DNA from: Candidatus Poribacteria bacterium
GTDB lineage: Bacteria > Poribacteria > WGA-4E > WGA-3G
DNA: 64,000 nt
Assembly (NCBI GenBank): GCA_958295945.1
Contig: OY282386.1
Span: 4,892,204 to 4,956,203, forward strand
Reading direction: 5' to 3'
The position numbers were made by a program, and so were the translations under genes. Shown piece after piece: positions 14,135 through 22,732 of the stretch. Within the stretch, counting starts at the first letter, position 1; the number at the start of each line of letters is the position of its first letter. Below the pieces are notes generated by a model. The model saw nothing but the letters and a program-made list of their open reading frames with translations, was not told the DNA's origin and made no database searches.

Positions 14135-15625
14135 TTATCGTAAGAACACAAATGTAACGACTACAAAAAGTGGGAATAAAATCACTATTGACCATAGCAT
14201 ATAACCAAAGAAACTCGGCATACGAATACCGCTCTGTTCTGCGATTGCTTTGACCATAAAATTCGGTGCATTGCCAATATAGGTGTTCGCACCCATGAAC
14301 ACCGCCCCGATAGAAATAGCAGTTAGTAATCTAACAAACTGCAGATGTTCTGGATCAGCCAATTCACCAGATACAATCGCTGGGATAACAGATTCGGTCA
14401 GCTGCAGTTGTCCCAGAGCAGTATTGAAGAACGTTAAATATGTCGGTGCGTTGTCTAAGAAACTGGATAGAACACCAGTTACCCAAAAGTAGTGTATCGG
14501 TTCTTTTATTGAGGCGATTAACCAACTTAGTGCTCCCTCTTCACCAACACCGAGGATTGTTAAGGCGGGAATAATCGTAATAAAGATGCCCGCGAAGACT
14601 TTTGCTACCTCTTCAATTGGTTCCCAAGAAAATTCGTTGTCTTGACGTAGTTTTCCGCTGAAAGGTGTGAACATAAGTGACAACAGTCCCATCAATACAA
14701 TCAACACATCACGAGTAAGGTTTTGCCATTTCACATGCACGTCAAAGATGCTAATTTCTCCCAATTTGAGAGTACCACTCATCAAAACAGCTGCGATGAT
14801 ACCGAAGAGGAAAACGAGATTAAAGAGTCCATCAACCCGAATTGGTTCGTTGGTGCCATCATCTGGAACTACTCCCCCTTCACGTTTAAACATAAATGTG
14901 TCAATGATGAAGAAAAGCACAATTAAGATGGCACTAATAAATAGCATGTGCGGCAATAGTGCTGTTGTTGTCCAGAAGAATGGGACATTGTGCAGAAAAC
15001 CTAGAAAGAGTGGTGGGTCACCCAAAGGTGTCAGGGAACCTCCGATGTTACTTACCAGAAAGATAAAGAAGACAACCAAGTGAACTTTGCTCTTTCGATG
15101 CTCGTTCGCGCGAATCAGTGGACGAATGAGGAGCATTGACGCGCCTGTAGTCCCTATCCAAGATGCAATCAGTGTGCCGATTAAGAGCAAAAACGTGTTG
15201 ACGAGTGGCGTGCCGCGAAGTGTTCCCCGTACGAGAATACCACCAGCGACTGTGAACAACCCCCACAGTAGAACAATGAATGGGATGTAATCAATCAAAT
15301 AGATGTATAAGATGTCGTGAAAAGCGTCTCCGCCGTATGCAATAAGGTATGGAATACCGAAGATTAATGCCCATGCCAACGACATTTTCCCACCGTGATG
15401 AACAAGAAAATGGGAATCTAATAGAAGTGGTAAAAGTGCAATTGATAATAGAATACCAACAAAGGGAATTATGCTCCAAAGCGGTAGGTTTTTACCATCA
15501 ACTTTGTAGTGTCCATGTTCTTCACCATTATGCGTCTCATCAGCAGCGTAGGTATCCATTGAAACGGATAATGTCAGTGCTAAAATCAAACATAAAATTA
15601 TAGTAAACGCGATTTTTGATTTCAC
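14135..15625 (-). CDS. nhaD: NhaD-type sodium/proton antiporter (ion transporter superfamily)
   Basis: The 496-residue protein starts at GTG (15623-15625), overlapping the nuoM stop by one base in the string TAGTG, so the two are translationally coupled. It has an N-terminal signal-like segment, a short histidine-rich periplasmic piece (HNGEEHGHYK) and about 11-12 hydrophobic helices. SNIGGSLTPLGDPPLFLG and SSFLDNAPTYLTFFNTALG are typical of NhaD/CitMHS/ArsB transporters. An nhaD homologue among complex I genes was described for Rhodothermus marinus, so the placement has precedent. It probably adjusts sodium or pH while complex I pumps. Confidence 0.82.
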   Translation of the reverse strand: MKSKIAFTIILCLILALTLSVSMDTYAADETHNGEEHGHYKVDGKNLPLWSIIPFVGILLSIALLPLLLDSHFLVHHGGKMSLAWALIFGIPYLIAYGGDAFHDILYIYLIDYIPFIVLLWGLFTVAGGILVRGTLRGTPLVNTFLLLIGTLIASWIGTTGASMLLIRPLIRANEHRKSKVHLVVFFIFLVSNIGGSLTPLGDPPLFLGFLHNVPFFWTTTALLPHMLFISAILIVLFFIIDTFMFKREGGVVPDDGTNEPIRVDGLFNLVFLFGIIAAVLMSGTLKLGEISIFDVHVKWQNLTRDVLIVLMGLLSLMFTPFSGKLRQDNEFSWEPIEEVAKVFAGIFITIIPALTILGVGEEGALSWLIASIKEPIHYFWVTGVLSSFLDNAPTYLTFFNTALGQLQLTESVIPAIVSGELADPEHLQFVRLLTAISIGAVFMGANTYIGNAPNFMVKAIAEQSGIRMPSFFGYMLWSIVILFPLFVVVTFVFLR

Positions 15626-17217
15626 TACTTCGTCAGTGCCTCCTCATCAATCTTCTCTAACTTTGCCGTTTCAATCTTCAGAACAACATTGTCTTGTGTT
15701 TCTTCGTGGTATTTGAGTTGTCCAACTTCAGGTGTATCATCCTTCACTTTGACTTTTGCGGCGACCGCGTCTACAGAGGGTTTCATCGGAGCTAAGAACG
15801 TATTAGGATACACACCTATCCATACGATGAACAGCAATATCGGTAGGAGTACAGCGAGTTCACGCGGATTTAGGTCAGACAAAGAGTCATTGGTACTATC
15901 CGGTGTGCCGAACATGACACGTTGGTACATCCATAGCATATAAACCGCAGCCAAAATTACCCCTGATGTTGCGAAGACTACATACCATCTTGAGAATGCA
16001 TTTTCAACAAAACTACCGAGTAGGATCTTGAATTCTCCGACAAATCCATTGAGTCCGGGTAATCCGATAGAGGACAGCGTTACAATCAGAAAGATCGTAG
16101 CAAAGATAGGCATTCTCTTTGCCAATCCACCAAAATCAACAATCATACGGCTATGTCTGCGTTCATATATCATACCTACTAATAGGAACAACGCTCCTGT
16201 ACTTAACCCGTGATTTATCATTTGCAGAACACTTCCTTGGATGCCAGTACCACTCTGTGAAAAAAGACCTAGGACCACAAAACCGAGGTGACTCACACTT
16301 GAGTATGCGACAAGCTTTTTCAAGTCCGGTTGCACCATTGCTACCAATGCACCATAGATTATACCGATAACGGCAAGTGGGACTACCCACGATGTTGCAT
16401 CTGCTGCTGCTTGTGGGAAAAGTGGTAAGCAGAAGCGCACAATTCCATACGTTCCCATTTTGAGCAAGACACCCGCAAGGATGACACTTCCTACTGTTGG
16501 TGCTTCAACGTGCGCATCTGGTAACCATGTATGGAATGGGAAGAGAGGGACTTTAATTGCGAATGCGATGAAAAATGCAAGGAATAATAGATTTGCATGA
16601 TCAAATGGTCCTTCCGCTGCTAAGAGTTGGACAAGATTAAAACTATCTCCGTTTTGGAAGTAGAGTGCTAAAATGCCAACTAACATCAATGCACTGCCAG
16701 CCATTGTATACAGGACAAACTTTATCGTAGCATAAATCCTGCGTTCACCACCCCATATTCCAATGAGGAAATACATCGGGATCAACATTGCCTCCCAGAA
16801 CACAAAGAACAGGAGTAGGTCTAATGCACAGAACACCCCTAACATACCTGTTTCCAGTGCCAGAAGCGACATCATGAACCCACTGAGACCTTTCTCAACT
16901 GAATTCCATGCGGCAAGAATACATAGTGGCGTTAGGAAAGTTGTAAGTATAACTAACCACAGGGAAATACCGTCAATGCCGATGTGGTAACTTGCCCCTA
17001 TACTCTTAATCCACGACAGTTCTTCATAGAGTTGTGAGTTAGTTTGAAAACCTTCTATTCCACTATCAAAATAAGTATAGAGTACTATTGAGATACCGAA
17101 TGTTAGCAGACTTATGAGAAGTGCGATCCATTTTATAGTAGATGCACCTAATCCTCTGAGCAATGCTATCGCTATTACACCAAGCAGTGGTAAAAAAATA
17201 ACTATTGAAAGTAGCAA
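15625..17217 (-). CDS. nuoM: NADH-quinone oxidoreductase subunit M
   Basis: A 530-residue antiporter-like complex I subunit. Conserved elements are FFVFWEAMLIPMYFLIG, the PLFPFHTWLPDAHVEAPT stretch and KKLVAYSSVSHLGFV. The start is TTG at 17217, six bases after AAAGGAG. It has a longer charged C-terminal tail than usual (about 45 residues after the last helix). The upstream neighbour is not nuoL but a methyltransferase cassette and a DUF5069 gene, so nuoM may need its own promoter. Confidence 0.95.
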   Translation of the reverse strand: MLLSIVIFLPLLGVIAIALLRGLGASTIKWIALLISLLTFGISIVLYTYFDSGIEGFQTNSQLYEELSWIKSIGASYHIGIDGISLWLVILTTFLTPLCILAAWNSVEKGLSGFMMSLLALETGMLGVFCALDLLLFFVFWEAMLIPMYFLIGIWGGERRIYATIKFVLYTMAGSALMLVGILALYFQNGDSFNLVQLLAAEGPFDHANLLFLAFFIAFAIKVPLFPFHTWLPDAHVEAPTVGSVILAGVLLKMGTYGIVRFCLPLFPQAAADATSWVVPLAVIGIIYGALVAMVQPDLKKLVAYSSVSHLGFVVLGLFSQSGTGIQGSVLQMINHGLSTGALFLLVGMIYERRHSRMIVDFGGLAKRMPIFATIFLIVTLSSIGLPGLNGFVGEFKILLGSFVENAFSRWYVVFATSGVILAAVYMLWMYQRVMFGTPDSTNDSLSDLNPRELAVLLPILLFIVWIGVYPNTFLAPMKPSVDAVAAKVKVKDDTPEVGQLKYHEETQDNVVLKIETAKLEKIDEEALTK

Positions 17218-17357: not shown

Positions 17358-17780
17358 TTATCTTCTTCTAAAGACTTTTGATGTGAACCACCCAGTAGCC
17401 AATCCAAAATGAAAAAAATGGTTCTTTAATTCGCGGCGGCGTTTTGAAAAACCATTTTGAGGCATTTTGTGTTGCCACGAATATTTCAACTTACGATTGA
17501 ACTTTGAGATTTCCTCAGATGATTTTTCATAGTTGTCTAAAATCCATGTCCCTAGTTTGACATCGTTCGTGAGTCTGACTGCTGCATCTTGGAATACCTC
17601 TCCTGAGATTCCGAGGAATGCTAAGATTTCTCTATCTTGTTCAGAATTTGCACCATATTTATAACTTCCGATCTCACCAGAATGAGCAGCGCGGGCTTTA
17701 TCTGTCAATCTTGCGACTCCACAGATACCTGCAACTTCTTTATTGGTCATATCTCGCGGTTTAAAATTATTCTTCTTCAT
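17358..17780 (-). CDS. DUF5069 family protein
   Basis: A 140-residue protein with the DUF5069 pattern: LTDKARAAHSGEIGSYKYG near the start, a middle ILAFLGISGEVFQDAAVR segment and TNDVKLGTWILDN. The family is soluble and uncharacterised. The C-terminal part is basic and tryptophan-rich (WQHKMPQNGFSKRRRE). It lies between the methyltransferase cassette and nuoM, outside the normal nuo set. GGAAG before the ATG supports the start. Confidence 0.65.
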   Translation of the reverse strand: MKKNNFKPRDMTNKEVAGICGVARLTDKARAAHSGEIGSYKYGANSEQDREILAFLGISGEVFQDAAVRLTNDVKLGTWILDNYEKSSEEISKFNRKLKYSWQHKMPQNGFSKRRRELKNHFFHFGLATGWFTSKVFRRR

Positions 17781-17825
17781 TTTTCTTCCGTTAGCAATTC
17801 TCTAAAAAAGAAGGATTTCGTATCA

Positions 17826-18971
17826 TTAGAACACAGTATTACAATTATGATATCTCCCTAATAGCAATCTAAAATACTTATCAAGTTCAATATCTGTCTT
17901 TTCCTTCTCCATCGGTTCAATTTGGAAATGATTTTCTAAATAAGGATGATGTCTAATAGCATCACTTATGAAACAATGTTTATATTGCTTGAACAACTTA
18001 TCATCTATCGGAACATCACAGTTTCCGAAGTAAAACGGTAGTCTATAAATGTTTCTTTTGAACACATCTACATAGGCGTAATAATCCAGTTTAGTTTTAT
18101 CTATTACAATCGTGTTGCTGCTATGGTTTTGAATAAAAGTGCGATTCCTTTTTAATGCGTTAATATCCCGCATTGTCCAGAAAAACAGCGAATCATCAAG
18201 TATCTGTTGCTTTTTACTGGGATATTTGCTGATATAACTTGTAATATAATCAAAATCACTCAGACAGAAACACTTCTTTTCAACTGTTCTAAATTGGAAT
18301 GAACGGATATAATCGTAATCCATTCCTTTTATATCCCGCTGATAAAATGCAATGATAATCGGAAACGGTGTGTGTTTAGCCGATTCGGGGAATTCCCCGC
18401 TGCTAATCAATATGCCATCTATCAGTTTATAATTTGCAGTAAACTCCTTTAAGTGTCTGAAATTAGTCTGTTTTATCAAATAAGACAATGGATGCAACAC
18501 ACAGATAAAATCTGCTTCAAGTTTGTTATAGGAACGCAGAAATGAAATTCCTAAGTCCCGACTTGCTATATCTTCATCTACCTCAAAGTCAATTTGTTTA
18601 ATCTTGTGACGTATCAGTGATGTTCTATCGTTATACGGTGGATTTCCTACGACAATCAATTTTGTGTGCTGATGTGGAATCCCGAATTTTTTCCTTGAAA
18701 CGTTGTGTAAAGCGTTTGTCCGAAAGAATTGGACTTTGTTTGTGTTCTTTTTTGCTACATCTATTGCATCTTCGTCTATATCACATCCGATTGTGTAAGA
18801 CTGACCATAGTTCTTTAAAAAGTCTCCGTACCCACAGGCAGTGTCAATTATGGTGGTCTGTGAATCTATGTAGGGTTCAATTAACTCCCAAGCCAGTTGG
18901 ACAAATTTAAGTGGGGTGTAGTAACTTCCTAAGTTAACCCTGTCTTCATAATCTAAATGTGCCTGACTCAT
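17826..18971 (-). CDS. Type II N6-adenine DNA methyltransferase (gamma-class order)
   Basis: The 381-residue protein has the motif X-like LGSYYTP at 14-20, the cofactor motif IIDTACGYGDFL at 41-52 and the catalytic NPPY at 110-113. This order and the GSYYTP start are typical of gamma-class N6-adenine enzymes of type II systems. The rest is a target-recognition region of unknown specificity. The ATG overlaps the previous frame's stop in ATGA (18968-18971), so it is translationally coupled to the split gene. Probably one of two modification enzymes of the cassette. Confidence 0.82.
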   Translation of the reverse strand: MSQAHLDYEDRVNLGSYYTPLKFVQLAWELIEPYIDSQTTIIDTACGYGDFLKNYGQSYTIGCDIDEDAIDVAKKNTNKVQFFRTNALHNVSRKKFGIPHQHTKLIVVGNPPYNDRTSLIRHKIKQIDFEVDEDIASRDLGISFLRSYNKLEADFICVLHPLSYLIKQTNFRHLKEFTANYKLIDGILISSGEFPESAKHTPFPIIIAFYQRDIKGMDYDYIRSFQFRTVEKKCFCLSDFDYITSYISKYPSKKQQILDDSLFFWTMRDINALKRNRTFIQNHSSNTIVIDKTKLDYYAYVDVFKRNIYRLPFYFGNCDVPIDDKLFKQYKHCFISDAIRHHPYLENHFQIEPMEKEKTDIELDKYFRLLLGRYHNCNTVF

Positions 18972-19449
18972 TTTTCAACTTTAGAATCGGTGAAATGTTC
19001 TTCACCGTACTTAGAAAAGTAATATAAGATTGAACGTTTTGCAATATCTTTCATAATATCATACATTTCTTCAACTGTCCATTCCTCAGCACGAAAATAG
19101 AAACTACCCCTATTGAATCGTCCATCTTCATCGTTATAAAGATATGTTTTGTTGAGTTTACCAAACATAACCATGGTTGATACTCTATCTAAAATCGGTG
19201 AATCATCCTCAAAATCACAACCGTACCCAAAGCATACAAATGGAAAGATACATTCACTAAGCAAAGCAGTTCCCATTGTTTCTCATGAATTAAGGTGATT
19301 TTATTGGAAAATGTATCCACCAAATGTTCTACGACCTGATTAAGAACTTTGATTAGAGAAGTTTCTTGTTTTTTGGCAGTTGCATTTATGATTGTATTCT
19401 TTCGCTGTTCTCGTAACTGTTCTTTATTTGCCATTGCATTTCCTTTCAA
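18968..19449 (-). CDS. Split small gene between two methyltransferases, possible restriction partner
   Basis: Two overlapping frames occupy this place: 19189-19449 (86 codons, from KGNAMANKEQLREQ) and 18968-19276 (102 codons, from MGTALLSECIF). In the first, sequence up to about LIHEKQ is charged and helical; in the second, sequence after MGTALL contains FEDDSPILDRV and RAEEWTVEEMYDIMKDIAKR. Crossing between frames near 19276-19290 gives about 155 residues. The first frame overlaps the end of the upstream methyltransferase and the second ends in ATGA with the downstream one. No nuclease motif is certain. It may be a restriction endonuclease shortened or frameshifted, or two tiny proteins. Confidence 0.4.
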
Positions 19450-20539
19450 CTAAGAAAAGTTGTTCAGTTACGTGAATGTTTCGATTCCTTAAATTTCTTG
19501 ATCCGCGAAATGTATTGTACTTTATCTCAAATTCATCAACATGACCGATTTTTCGTAACATAGTACGCATTTCGTCTGGACAAATAAAACCTTCATTATT
19601 AAAAGAAATAAGGAAAAAATGTGTGTCAAGAGTATGCAACAATTCATTAAATAATTCTTTTGATTTTGTACGGACATTATAACCCGAACGTTTCCAATCC
19701 TTAGGGATTCCTGATACTCTACTAATATTTGTTGGTTCTTTGTAATGTACAAGCAAGTTTAACATAAAGTAGTTTGAACCGTAAGGATGTTGATTGTATG
19801 GAGGATCAATATAAGTCAGATCAAGATCCTTTATTTTGCGTGCAACTATATTAGTGTCGTCCTGGAATACATCATACTCACATTCAAATTGACTTAGTAC
19901 TGGTGGTTCCAATTCTATTTTACCTTTAATACGACTAAGTGCATTAGAGTTTGTTCCACCATACTGTCCAACCTCCGTATTCCTATTTTTGTAGAATCCT
20001 TTAAATACTCCTGATGTATTTGAATGGATTGATGCTTTGCTGAGCAGTGGACCGAGTAATGAGTCACGGGACATTACAGGATAATCTTCAAGCAATCTAC
20101 GATAATTATCTAGTCTACGGGCATTATCACGGGTGTAAAATACTCGGTCATTAGGTGTTATTTTTGATTCATCTGTAGGCGCGTAAAGTTTCTCAATAAA
20201 TCCTTTAGTAAACGGTTCTTCAACGCGATTATTGAGTTCCTTAACAATTTTAGTAATTCCACGGAAATCAATAGAACTTTTGTTCTGAAGATAGCAGCGT
20301 GAAACTGTTGCTGCATAATCTTCAAAATCATTGCTTGCTATATACGAGGCATGAGCTTTCAGAAAGCGAGAAACAATACCTGAACCACTGAAAGCATCAA
20401 AAACACGTAAATGTGATTTACCTGTGCGTTTTTTGACTTTAACAACTGCTTTGTTTATGTGGCTCAGAAGAGAACGTTTATTTCCAATGTATGTGATCAG
20501 TTGATCTGTAAGATAGCGAATATCTTCTATTTCAATCAT
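19424..20539 (-). CDS. D12-class (alpha) N6-adenine DNA methyltransferase
   Basis: The protein has 371 residues. YIGNKRSLL at 17-25 and FDAFSGSGIV at 47-56 form the cofactor site, and DPPYNQHPYGSNYFML at 245-260 is the catalytic motif IV. The motif order is alpha-class, as in Dam, DpnM and many type II modification enzymes. It leads the three-frame cassette, overlapping the next frame. The pairing with a gamma-class methylase suggests a system in which two enzymes modify the two strands or two forms of an asymmetric site. Specificity unknown. Confidence 0.85.
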   Translation of the reverse strand: MIEIEDIRYLTDQLITYIGNKRSLLSHINKAVVKVKKRTGKSHLRVFDAFSGSGIVSRFLKAHASYIASNDFEDYAATVSRCYLQNKSSIDFRGITKIVKELNNRVEEPFTKGFIEKLYAPTDESKITPNDRVFYTRDNARRLDNYRRLLEDYPVMSRDSLLGPLLSKASIHSNTSGVFKGFYKNRNTEVGQYGGTNSNALSRIKGKIELEPPVLSQFECEYDVFQDDTNIVARKIKDLDLTYIDPPYNQHPYGSNYFMLNLLVHYKEPTNISRVSGIPKDWKRSGYNVRTKSKELFNELLHTLDTHFFLISFNNEGFICPDEMRTMLRKIGHVDEFEIKYNTFRGSRNLRNRNIHVTEQLFLVERKCNGK

Positions 20540-20580
20540 TGAGATGTCCTCTTTGAATTCTTAAACTCTGATTTTCAAAT

Positions 20581-20690
20581 TGAATATAGTAGATTTTGAA
20601 AGGACTTGAACACCCGGCATCGGCGAGGTTAGGAAACCTCGCCTACCGTGGGACGAAAGTGTCAACTTATATTCATAATTCACTATATCA
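20581..20690. mobile_element. MITE-like element at the edge of the methyltransferase cassette
   Basis: ATATAGTAGATTTTGA near 20585-20600 is approximately complementary to TCATAATTCACTATAT near 20674-20689. The centre contains the hairpin GGCGAGGTT/AACCTCGCC (20622-20643) and CTACCG, the shared core. It lies between the cassette promoter side and nuoL. Confidence 0.55.
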
Positions 20691-20800: not shown

Positions 20801-22732
20801 TTAAGTAAAGAACAGATAAAATGCGAGGAAGATTACGATACCTACAACCATTGACACAATATAGGCTTGAACGAGTCCGGTTTGTAGTCTACGTAACAAT
20901 CCACCTATTGCTCTGATGAGTACGGCAACACCGTTGACAATTCCATCAATAATACCACTATCAAACAGTTTCCACAACAAGAAATGAGAAGCGTTTTTGA
21001 TTGGTTGCACAATGAATGTATTGTATATCTCATCAACATAGAACTTGTTAGCAACAAGTTTCTGTAATGCATTTGTAGGTTCTGCTGAAGGCACACGATT
21101 TTTGTAACGTGTCCAAGCATAAGCGATTCCGAGTATACCGACAATTGACGAAATAATCATAAACGGAATGGCACTACCTAATGCTTCACCGTGTTCAACT
21201 TTAAAACCTGATACTTTCTCCGTAAAGTGATGGAACCAACTATCATGTCCACCCACGCCTAATAGTAAGCCGATAATTGCTGATGGGATTGCGAGAATAG
21301 CAAGTGGAACCCACATTACTGCGGGTGATTCATGGAGGTGTGATTCTACTTCAGGATCTACACGAGATTCTCCGTAAAATGTCACAAAGATTAAACGGAA
21401 CATGTAAAATGCTGTCAGGAATGCCGTTGCTATTCCGATGATGTATATTATTTTTGAACTTCCCCATGCACTGTGGAGTATTTCGTCCTTACTCCAGAAT
21501 CCACTTAGAAATGGCGCGCCAGCAATTGCCAAAGCACCAACCAAAAATGTGATATGTGTAATCGGCAGTTTTTTTCGCAACCCACCCATTTTCCGTATGT
21601 CTAATTCATTTGCCATCGCGTGCATCACACTGCCAGCAGTTAGGAACATGAGTCCTTTGAAGAATGCGTGTGTCACCAAATGGAAAATGCCAGATGCATA
21701 CGCACCAACACCAACACCGACAAACATATATCCGAGTTGACTTACAGTAGAATAGGCAAGAATCCGTTTTATATCGTTCTGTTTGATGGCAATTATTGCG
21801 GCAAACAAAGCGGTTAACACACCAATCCACGCGACAACGACTCCTGTTCCTGCGATGTTGTAAAGCACAGCGGAACGCGCTATCATATAAACACCCGCGG
21901 TAACCATAGTCGCGGCGTGTATTAATGCGCTAACGGGAGTTGGACCTTCCATAGCATCTGGTAGCCATACATAGAGAGGGATCTGTGCGGATTTGCCGAT
22001 TGCACCAACGAATAGTAAGAGTGTTGCAATTACAAGAGTGCTTGCTCCGAATATTTGTTTGAAACTGTCTGTTTCAACCAAACCCATCCCCTCTGCTGCA
22101 GGTTGTAATTCTTTAGCAGTTTCAAAGATACCACCAAAATCAAGGGTGCCAAATGCTGCGAACAATGTGAACATTCCCAATAGGAAACCGAAATCGCCTA
22201 TCCTGTTGACAATAAACGCCTTTTTACCTGCGTCAGTAGCGGATTGTTTCTCATACCAGAATCCGATTAGTAAATAAGAACACAATCCAACACCTTCCCA
22301 TCCGACAAACATCATCAGGTAGTTGTTGCCAAGAACGAGGATTAGCATTGCGAAAACAAACAGATTGAGGTAGGCAAAATAACGGGTATATCCTTCGTCT
22401 CCGTGCATGTAGCCGATGGAGTATACGTGGATGAGAAATCCTACACCAGTGATCACTAAAAGCATTACGGTTGTTAAGGCATCAACGTGGAAACCGATAC
22501 TAATATAATCTGAAATCCATGAATATAAGATTCCCGCTTCTCCCTCAAGCGTATTCCCACGATCTACTGAGACGAATGCTATAATGGAACAAATTAAGGA
22601 AACAAGCACAGCAAGCGCACCAATGCCTCCACTCAGTTTCTCATTCCCTTTTAACCATTTGCCAAATAATCCGTTAATCAGAAAGCCGACAAGTGGCGAA
22701 ATTAATAGGACAATTATTAGATCTCTTGGCAT
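20801..22732 (-). CDS. nuoL: NADH-quinone oxidoreductase subunit L
   Basis: The 643-residue subunit is the largest membrane antiporter-like protein of complex I. Conserved stretches are FVGWEGVGLCSYLLIG, the PLYVWLPDAMEGPTPVSAL region and KRILAYSTVSQLGYM. The C-terminal part carries the long helix and extra transmembrane segment that links the proton channels. AAAGGATAAAGT before the ATG overlaps the nuoK stop, so coupling to nuoK is likely. Downstream the operon is broken by the methyltransferase cassette. Confidence 0.95.
   Translation of the reverse strand: MPRDLIIVLLISPLVGFLINGLFGKWLKGNEKLSGGIGALAVLVSLICSIIAFVSVDRGNTLEGEAGILYSWISDYISIGFHVDALTTVMLLVITGVGFLIHVYSIGYMHGDEGYTRYFAYLNLFVFAMLILVLGNNYLMMFVGWEGVGLCSYLLIGFWYEKQSATDAGKKAFIVNRIGDFGFLLGMFTLFAAFGTLDFGGIFETAKELQPAAEGMGLVETDSFKQIFGASTLVIATLLLFVGAIGKSAQIPLYVWLPDAMEGPTPVSALIHAATMVTAGVYMIARSAVLYNIAGTGVVVAWIGVLTALFAAIIAIKQNDIKRILAYSTVSQLGYMFVGVGVGAYASGIFHLVTHAFFKGLMFLTAGSVMHAMANELDIRKMGGLRKKLPITHITFLVGALAIAGAPFLSGFWSKDEILHSAWGSSKIIYIIGIATAFLTAFYMFRLIFVTFYGESRVDPEVESHLHESPAVMWVPLAILAIPSAIIGLLLGVGGHDSWFHHFTEKVSGFKVEHGEALGSAIPFMIISSIVGILGIAYAWTRYKNRVPSAEPTNALQKLVANKFYVDEIYNTFIVQPIKNASHFLLWKLFDSGIIDGIVNGVAVLIRAIGGLLRRLQTGLVQAYIVSMVVGIVIFLAFYLFFT

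Follow-up and report, generated by a model that had tools for sequence, protein, structure and literature searches.

Gene content of the nuoL-nuoM interval

The window analysed here is a stretch of 64,000 nucleotides (positions 4,892,204-4,956,203) of the one-contig, 5.34-Mb genome of a sponge-associated Candidatus Poribacteria, designated G000 below. In this genome an interval of 3.6 kb lies between the complex I genes nuoL and nuoM and holds two DNA adenine methyltransferase genes (MT1 and MT2), a broken small gene, a DUF5069 gene and a 103-bp repeat. All genes of the region are on the minus strand and, in window positions, the features are as follows.

20801-22732, minus strand: nuoL, complex I subunit, upstream boundary (PF00361, E=1.2e-85; 83-93% identity in relatives of the genus)
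20585-20687, strand not assigned: 103-bp repeat resembling a miniature inverted-repeat transposable element (MITE), whose terminal inverted repeats, TATAGT...ACTATA, are imperfect (43 or more matches across the genome)
19424-20539, minus strand: MT1, D12/alpha-type N6-adenine methyltransferase, intact (PF02086, E=1.6e-18; PADLOC MTase_II PDLC03257, E=4e-109)
18968-19434, minus strand: dead EcoRI-family endonuclease (DNA alignment with nine homologues; two open reading frames, ORFs, at 19189-19449 and 18968-19276)
17826-18971, minus strand: MT2, gamma-type N6-adenine methyltransferase of the M.PabI kind, intact (NPPY; PADLOC MTase_II PDLC03275, E=7e-88)
17358-17780, minus strand: DUF5069 gene (PF16798, E=1.2e-14)
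15625-17217, minus strand: nuoM, complex I subunit, downstream boundary (PF00361, E=4.6e-81)

A first-pass annotation of this stretch had already placed two classes of adenine methyltransferase, a split gene and DUF5069 between nuoL and nuoM, and the coordinates and identities hold. By the general rules that assign such enzymes to classes, MT1 has the alpha order of motifs (motif I, FSGSG, at residue 50 and DPPY at residue 245, with the target-recognition region in between) and MT2 the gamma order (motif I at residue 45, NPPY at residue 110, and a C-terminal target-recognition region). Neither protein has a solved-structure relative by sequence at E<=0.01. The G+C content is 0.31-0.38 over the insertion, compared with about 0.39-0.46 for most of the flanking nuo genes. 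Reading frames overlap at the MT1 stop and the nuclease start, and the stop of the nuclease remnant and the MT2 start codon share the sequence ATGA. Consensus scans of the gap returned 14 promoter-like sites (15.2 expected) and one terminator-like site (1.7 expected), numbers that speak neither for nor against a new nuoM promoter.

A nuoL match was found in 57 genomes, of which 41 (G000 and 40 relatives) were taken for comparison of the gap. Gap counts use the 40 loci in which both nuoL and nuoM are seen, the contig of G010 ending before nuoM. The presence of MT2 and of the restriction glycosylase R.PabI was surveyed across 59 genomes, and the genus comprises 18 genomes including G000. Most relatives are fragmented assemblies, which applies to every absence count given below.

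An EcoRI-family nuclease remnant beside MT1

DNA alignment shows that the broken gene lacks 259 bp that are present without interruption in nine homologous loci. The remnant keeps about 55 recognisable N-terminal codons and about 100 C-terminal codons, which stand in different frames because 259 = 3x86+1. The deleted 259 bp cover PDGG...EVK, i.e. the PD...ExK catalytic segment. A full-length homologue of 239 amino acids (locus L062) matches the Pfam EcoRI family (PF02963, E=2.5e-14) as well as solved EcoRI structures (E=6e-12), and its PDGG...EVK is aligned to PDGG...EAK of EcoRI. Judged from its sequence, the split gene is a dead EcoRI-family nuclease and not a small gene in its own right. 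Two ORFs in different frames are a common sign of sequencing error, but there is very little chance that the break is an assembly artefact: the assembly is a single contig, nine homologues all have the 259 bp that are absent here, and even a one-base error would still leave an in-frame loss of 86 residues and no PD...ExK.

MT1 adjoins this remnant and is full length with an intact DPPY. Its closest named relatives are metagenome-assembled genomes of Candidatus Poribacteria. Eight relatives in the family carry MT1 at 75-84% identity, none of them in the nuoL-nuoM gap, and an EcoRI-type gene follows MT1 in all eight (full length in seven, to residue 199 in G034). Four more distant, order-level genomes carry MT1 at 73-74%, and no EcoRI-type match is present in the fetched flanks of these copies. 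Weaker matches, with identities of about 27-33% (in G007, G038 and G042, and as second matches in G040 and G043), were treated as distant paralogues and not counted. Among 80 MT1 loci from named genomes, the C-terminal part of the nuclease was matched just downstream in 25, and a Paracoccus plasmid carries a pair annotated as EcoRI-family nuclease and DNA adenine methylase (nuclease match at 53%). The ratio of nonsynonymous to synonymous substitution rates (dN/dS) of MT1 is 0.042-0.079 in pairwise comparison with seven family relatives. Compared with G004 of the same genus, dS is 2.6 for MT1 against 0.96 for nuoL, and thus these two MT1 copies were not simply inherited vertically.

As a target of MT1, CATATG was considered and rejected, because it is depleted with or without MT1. 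In many of the genomes sampled the hexamer reaches only about 0.0-0.12 of its expected frequency, a strong depletion that G008 (0.64) does not share; the counts for G000 come from a 304-kb sample that includes the window. CTAG, at 0.01-0.11 of expectation, is almost missing from the genus. Conserved restriction or a repair bias are possible causes of these depletions.

MT2, an orphan methyltransferase of the M.PabI kind

Among plasmids, MT2 matches 14 Campylobacter records (47% identity, 91% of the length covered), including a C. coli methyltransferase next to R.Pab1; in both of the records that were opened, the next gene is annotated as an R.Pab1 family restriction endonuclease. The same pairing is found within the genus. 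In G002 an intact R.PabI gene begins at the end of MT2, inside the nuoL-nuoM gap (PF09522, E=5.7e-39), and its product matches the solved R.PabI-family chain 7cfa (E=3.4e-46). R.PabI and the mesophilic R.CcoLI and R.HpyAXII recognise GTAC, and M.PabI makes GTm6AC, as stated in passages of PMC7806768 and PMC10273834. Given this kinship, MT2 is predicted to methylate GTAC, giving GT(m6)AC.

MT2 is present in 25 of the 59 genomes surveyed, G000 included. R.PabI is found in only four (G002, G005, G011 and G054), directly preceded by MT2 in the first three, and is not detectable in the G000 genome nor in 22 of the 25 MT2 carriers overall. In G005 it has been cut to about 119 matching residues, with a transposase-like ORF close by, and in G011 it is frame-shifted near its end, the last 23 residues being in another frame. 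MT2 of G000 is thus an intact, conserved methyltransferase without its cognate nuclease, i.e. an orphan. MT1 is also intact and without a nuclease; it does not share the conservation.

The copies of MT2 at the nuo site show a pairwise dN/dS of 0.081-0.113 in ten comparisons, indicating purifying selection, although the ratio is only rough where dS is near or above 1; their dS of 0.80-1.10 is similar to that of nuoM (0.71-1.16). Sequences with less than 75% query coverage or less than 50% identity were excluded from the dN/dS set, as were two with internal stops (nuoM of G043 and DUF5069 of G004). In a phylogenetic tree all nuo-site copies of MT2 form one clade, whose sister group is the non-nuo copies of G003 and G005.

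MT2 might be kept for gene regulation by GTAC methylation, perhaps of the nuo operon itself, and not as a relic or for protection. Such a role would agree with the position inside nuo and with purifying selection even though R.PabI is undetectable in most carriers. However, MT2 is equally well kept at other loci (G003, G005 and the neighbouring genus g2), so that the nuo position is not needed, and vaccination against R.PabI-bearing neighbours explains the retention equally well. Regulation as the reason for retention therefore appears somewhat doubtful.

Age of the arrangement in related genomes

Of the 40 loci, 25 have DUF5069 between nuoL and nuoM. These are 13 of the 17 loci of the genus and 12 of the 15 of genus g2, where two copies are partial; none of the 8 loci further out has it. 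DUF5069 is thus old and no part of a restriction system. MT2 occupies the nuo site in 11 of the 18 genomes of the genus and in none of the 15 genomes of g2, 11 of which carry it elsewhere. MT1 with the dead nuclease is found at the nuo site only in G000 among the 18 genomes. The following gap contents were observed in the genus.

Near-empty gap: G006, G008, G012, G015
DUF5069 only: G005, G011, G003
MT2 and DUF5069: G009, G014, G017
MT2, R.PabI and DUF5069: G002
PIN-like ORF, MT2 and DUF5069: G016
PDC-M56A/B, MT2 and DUF5069: G007, G013
Rpn-family gene, MT2 and DUF5069: G001, G004
MT2, to the contig end: G010
MT1, dead nuclease, MT2 and DUF5069: G000 only

Two of these genomes show further peculiarities. 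G003 (L147) has two tandem copies of DUF5069 between nuoL and nuoM. G011 has, beside its main nuoL-DUF5069-nuoM locus, a second nuoM-bearing contig (L219, G011:C194) that reads MT2-R.PabI-DUF5069-nuoM. No paper on DUF5069 was found in the open-licence literature.

The gene order in sister genomes had been proposed as the check that would separate an invasion from an old arrangement, and it divides the locus in two. MT2 with DUF5069 is the old arrangement, and MT1 with the nuclease remnant is a later, recent arrival. The earlier claim that a restriction-modification (R-M) cassette was inserted into the nuo operon is thus borne out as regards invasion by R-M genes, but not as regards a single cassette, since MT2 and DUF5069 are common to sister species; DUF5069, formerly counted as a member, belongs to an older nuoL-DUF5069-nuoM arrangement of the family. 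It is extremely improbable that one functional R-M cassette, comprising two methyltransferases and a two-part nuclease, was inserted as a unit. The tight overlaps of MT1 with the nuclease and of the nuclease with MT2, all in one direction, would fit such a unit, but MT2 occurs without MT1 at the same site in 10 genomes of the genus, MT1 and its nuclease occur without MT2 elsewhere, the nuclease is without its catalytic core, and the true partner of MT2 is an R.PabI-type enzyme. With an EcoRI-type nuclease that has lost its catalytic core and no R.PabI partner in the genome, the locus of G000 would, on sequence grounds, contain no active restriction system. The first-pass annotation had also suggested that placement in an essential operon might stabilise the cassette; the missing nuclease parts speak against restriction activity having been preserved there.

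Module turnover upstream of MT2

In genomes without a module, the spacer from the nuoL stop to the MT2 start is 34-65 nt long. In sister species this spacer holds four types of module, to which R.PabI after MT2 in G002 may be added. Besides MT1 with the nuclease remnant, these are PDC-M56A/B, listed by PADLOC as candidates for defence genes (E=5e-156 and 7e-47; G013 scanned), the Rpn-family gene, which scores above the cut-off of TIGR01784 (G001 scanned), and the PIN-like ORF of G016, which is below the Pfam cut-off and has no PADLOC match. All modules beside MT2 in the genus are co-directional with the operon. At the joints, sequence similarity sets in a few bases ahead of the MT2 ATG and continues from there, and upstream of this point the genomes differ. 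Different modules are held even by G000 and G016, which are sisters by nuoL, nuoM and nuoN.

This pattern may have arisen in two ways. One is that the gap is merely permissive: any co-directional arrival survives, and the run of defence genes mirrors their abundance in sponge symbionts. Of the 26 genomes that carry PDC-M56A, 24, G000 included, have it elsewhere, so that modules are not tied to the nuo site. The gaps listed showed no integrase, and neither an attachment site nor a target duplication was seen. Unrelated, non-defence genes occupy this gap beyond the genus (G034, G044 and G046) and speak more for a permissive gap than for a special docking site. These include an ORF of G044 and G046 that we take to be aspartyl-protease-like and a gene on the opposite strand in G046, presumably an IS5-like transposase. 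In G034 (L166) a secreted protein of 699 amino acids is encoded between DUF5069 and nuoM, and we assume that its repeated segments are CARDB/dockerin-like. Against mere permissiveness, all four MT2-side modules within the genus are defence- or nuclease-type and operon-directed, but four are too few to exclude chance. We give a permissive gap an even chance.

The other way is that the nuoL-nuoM spacer is a true docking site, marked by the orphan GTAC methyltransferase, in which restriction, toxin or nuclease modules insert upstream of the MT2 start, oriented like the operon. There they would be expressed from the nuo promoter and lose the toxic half, so that methyltransferases stay behind. Such a docking site seems unlikely. 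If it were true, the respiratory operon would gradually accumulate a methylome together with immunity to the matching restriction systems.

The MITE-like repeat

A MITE-like element had been reported at one edge of the insertion, and this is confirmed. The repeat lies 113 bp past the nuoL stop and about 45 bp before MT1, and is not found at both ends of the insertion. It is short, multicopy and without a transposase, and has terminal inverted repeats, all of which are features of MITEs. The figure of at least 43 matches is a lower bound (208 candidates at first look, 40 scored). In an alignment of 30 copies, with a fold of -31.8 kcal/mol, the gap copy of G000 is complete at 103 bp. The ends read TA/TA in most aligned copies, which is compatible both with a TA duplication and with TA being part of the element. 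Among the other loci searched, the repeat was matched only at the G001 locus (76% over 63 bases). Within the repeat of this family there is a palindrome that is nearly perfect, GGCGAGGTT-AACCTCGCC; two copies lie next to each other at G000:C1:2637146-2637615. Reading the repeat as a REPIN/RAYT element was rejected: the locus (L276) of the one Y1 transposase gene found in the genome has no blastn match to the repeat, and the inverted ends fit a MITE better.

Lying between nuoL and MT1, the repeat could be suspected of having carried the MT1-nuclease module into the operon. It is, however, a single copy on one side only and a complete 103-bp element like the 29 other aligned copies, and we see hardly any likelihood that it was the vehicle.

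Further along the operon, between nuoM and nuoN, the window contains a gene (14135-15625) that we take to be NhaD-type Na+/H+ antiporter-like. Matches to this gene follow nuoM in all 40 loci that reach far enough, and are fragmented in distant genomes.

A probable layered history of the gap

Taken together, the gap between nuoL and nuoM very probably records a series of insertions, layer upon layer, into a respiratory operon and not the arrival of one cassette. The first layer would be DUF5069, which two genera of the family have in the gap. A M.PabI-type pair, MT2 with the R.PabI glycosylase, would then have entered once in the genus, between nuoL and DUF5069; later the glycosylase would have been lost in most lineages and MT2 kept under selection as an orphan. 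The third layer may be defence-type modules, differing from species to species, that came into the short spacer between nuoL and MT2. In G000 this would have been MT1 with its EcoRI-family nuclease, which was then presumably killed by the one 259-bp deletion. The MITE copy may have landed in the nuoL-MT1 spacer either before or after this third layer.

R-M systems become orphan methyltransferases when the nuclease is lost first, as a cell whose methyltransferase went before the nuclease would die. Today, MT1 and MT2 would be translated within the nuo transcript and methylate the chromosome, MT2 at GTAC and MT1 at some other adenine motif, and nothing in the gap would restrict DNA. The orphan MT2 may protect against a matching restriction enzyme or may have outlived it. 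Protection against R.PabI-bearing relatives such as G002 and a service in regulation are both compatible with the data.

A number of observations weigh against this history. The low dN/dS of MT1 mostly dates from the time before the death of the nuclease, and the dN/dS of MT2 is as rough as noted above. Support is low at some nodes within the nuo-site clade of MT2 (0.30 and 0.34), G000 and G016 are not sisters in the MT2 tree as they are in those of nuoL, nuoM and nuoN, and single nuo gene trees partly conflict with each other and with MT2. Some horizontal exchange is thus possible, and vertical inheritance of MT2 is not proven. The observed/expected ratio of GTAC is 0.57-0.64 in five MT2 carriers of the genus and 0.61-0.63 in three non-carriers; this equality shows no footprint of past restriction, and GTAC avoidance was rejected as proof of long-term restriction by R.PabI. 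Because most relatives are fragmented assemblies, a gene scored as absent may sit on a missing contig, and the second locus of G011 may be a strain mixture or a duplication. The non-defence genes in the gap outside the genus also count here.

The locus shows within one operon the entry of R-M genes, their breakage and the orphan methyltransferases left behind, with sister species at different steps (R.PabI intact, truncated or none). Genomes with MT2 alone, with MT1 and MT2, or with neither predict specific methylomes. The location in nuo lets one ask whether defence genes profit from the expression of an essential operon.

Comparison with known systems

Among EcoRI-family Type II R-M systems, the likeness is that intact homologues of the broken gene match EcoRI by family and by solved structure; the difference is that the nuclease in the window is dead, its catalytic segment deleted. 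MT1 is of the D12/alpha type, in which we assume it to be unlike M.EcoRI.

The PabI family (R.PabI/M.PabI, HpyAXII and CcoLI) is resembled in that MT2 is gamma-type, has plasmid relatives beside R.Pab1 and is followed by R.PabI in G002. According to PMC4615327, systems of this family insert between host genes, and their R gene is often disrupted relative to M; the word poribacterium does not occur in the main text of that paper. The present case differs in that R.PabI is absent from the window, MT2 lies within a complex I operon and the host is a poribacterium. The restriction-glycosylase family is thereby extended to sponge-associated Poribacteria.

Patchy R-M genes and conserved orphan methyltransferases are reported for Halobacteria in PMC6471742. 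By contrast, G000 stacks two unrelated orphans in one operon gap. No paper on this nuo insertion was found in the open-licence literature.

Defence genes can be concentrated in hotspots between core genes. The nuo gap is similar in that variable defence-type cargo lies between two conserved genes in sister species, but here the site is inside a co-directional complex I operon, no integrase or attachment site was seen, and the modules number only four. As far as open-licence papers show, two things are new: the occurrence of the PabI family in Poribacteria, and a complex I operon in which defence-type modules replace one another at a single joint. The parts themselves are of known kinds.

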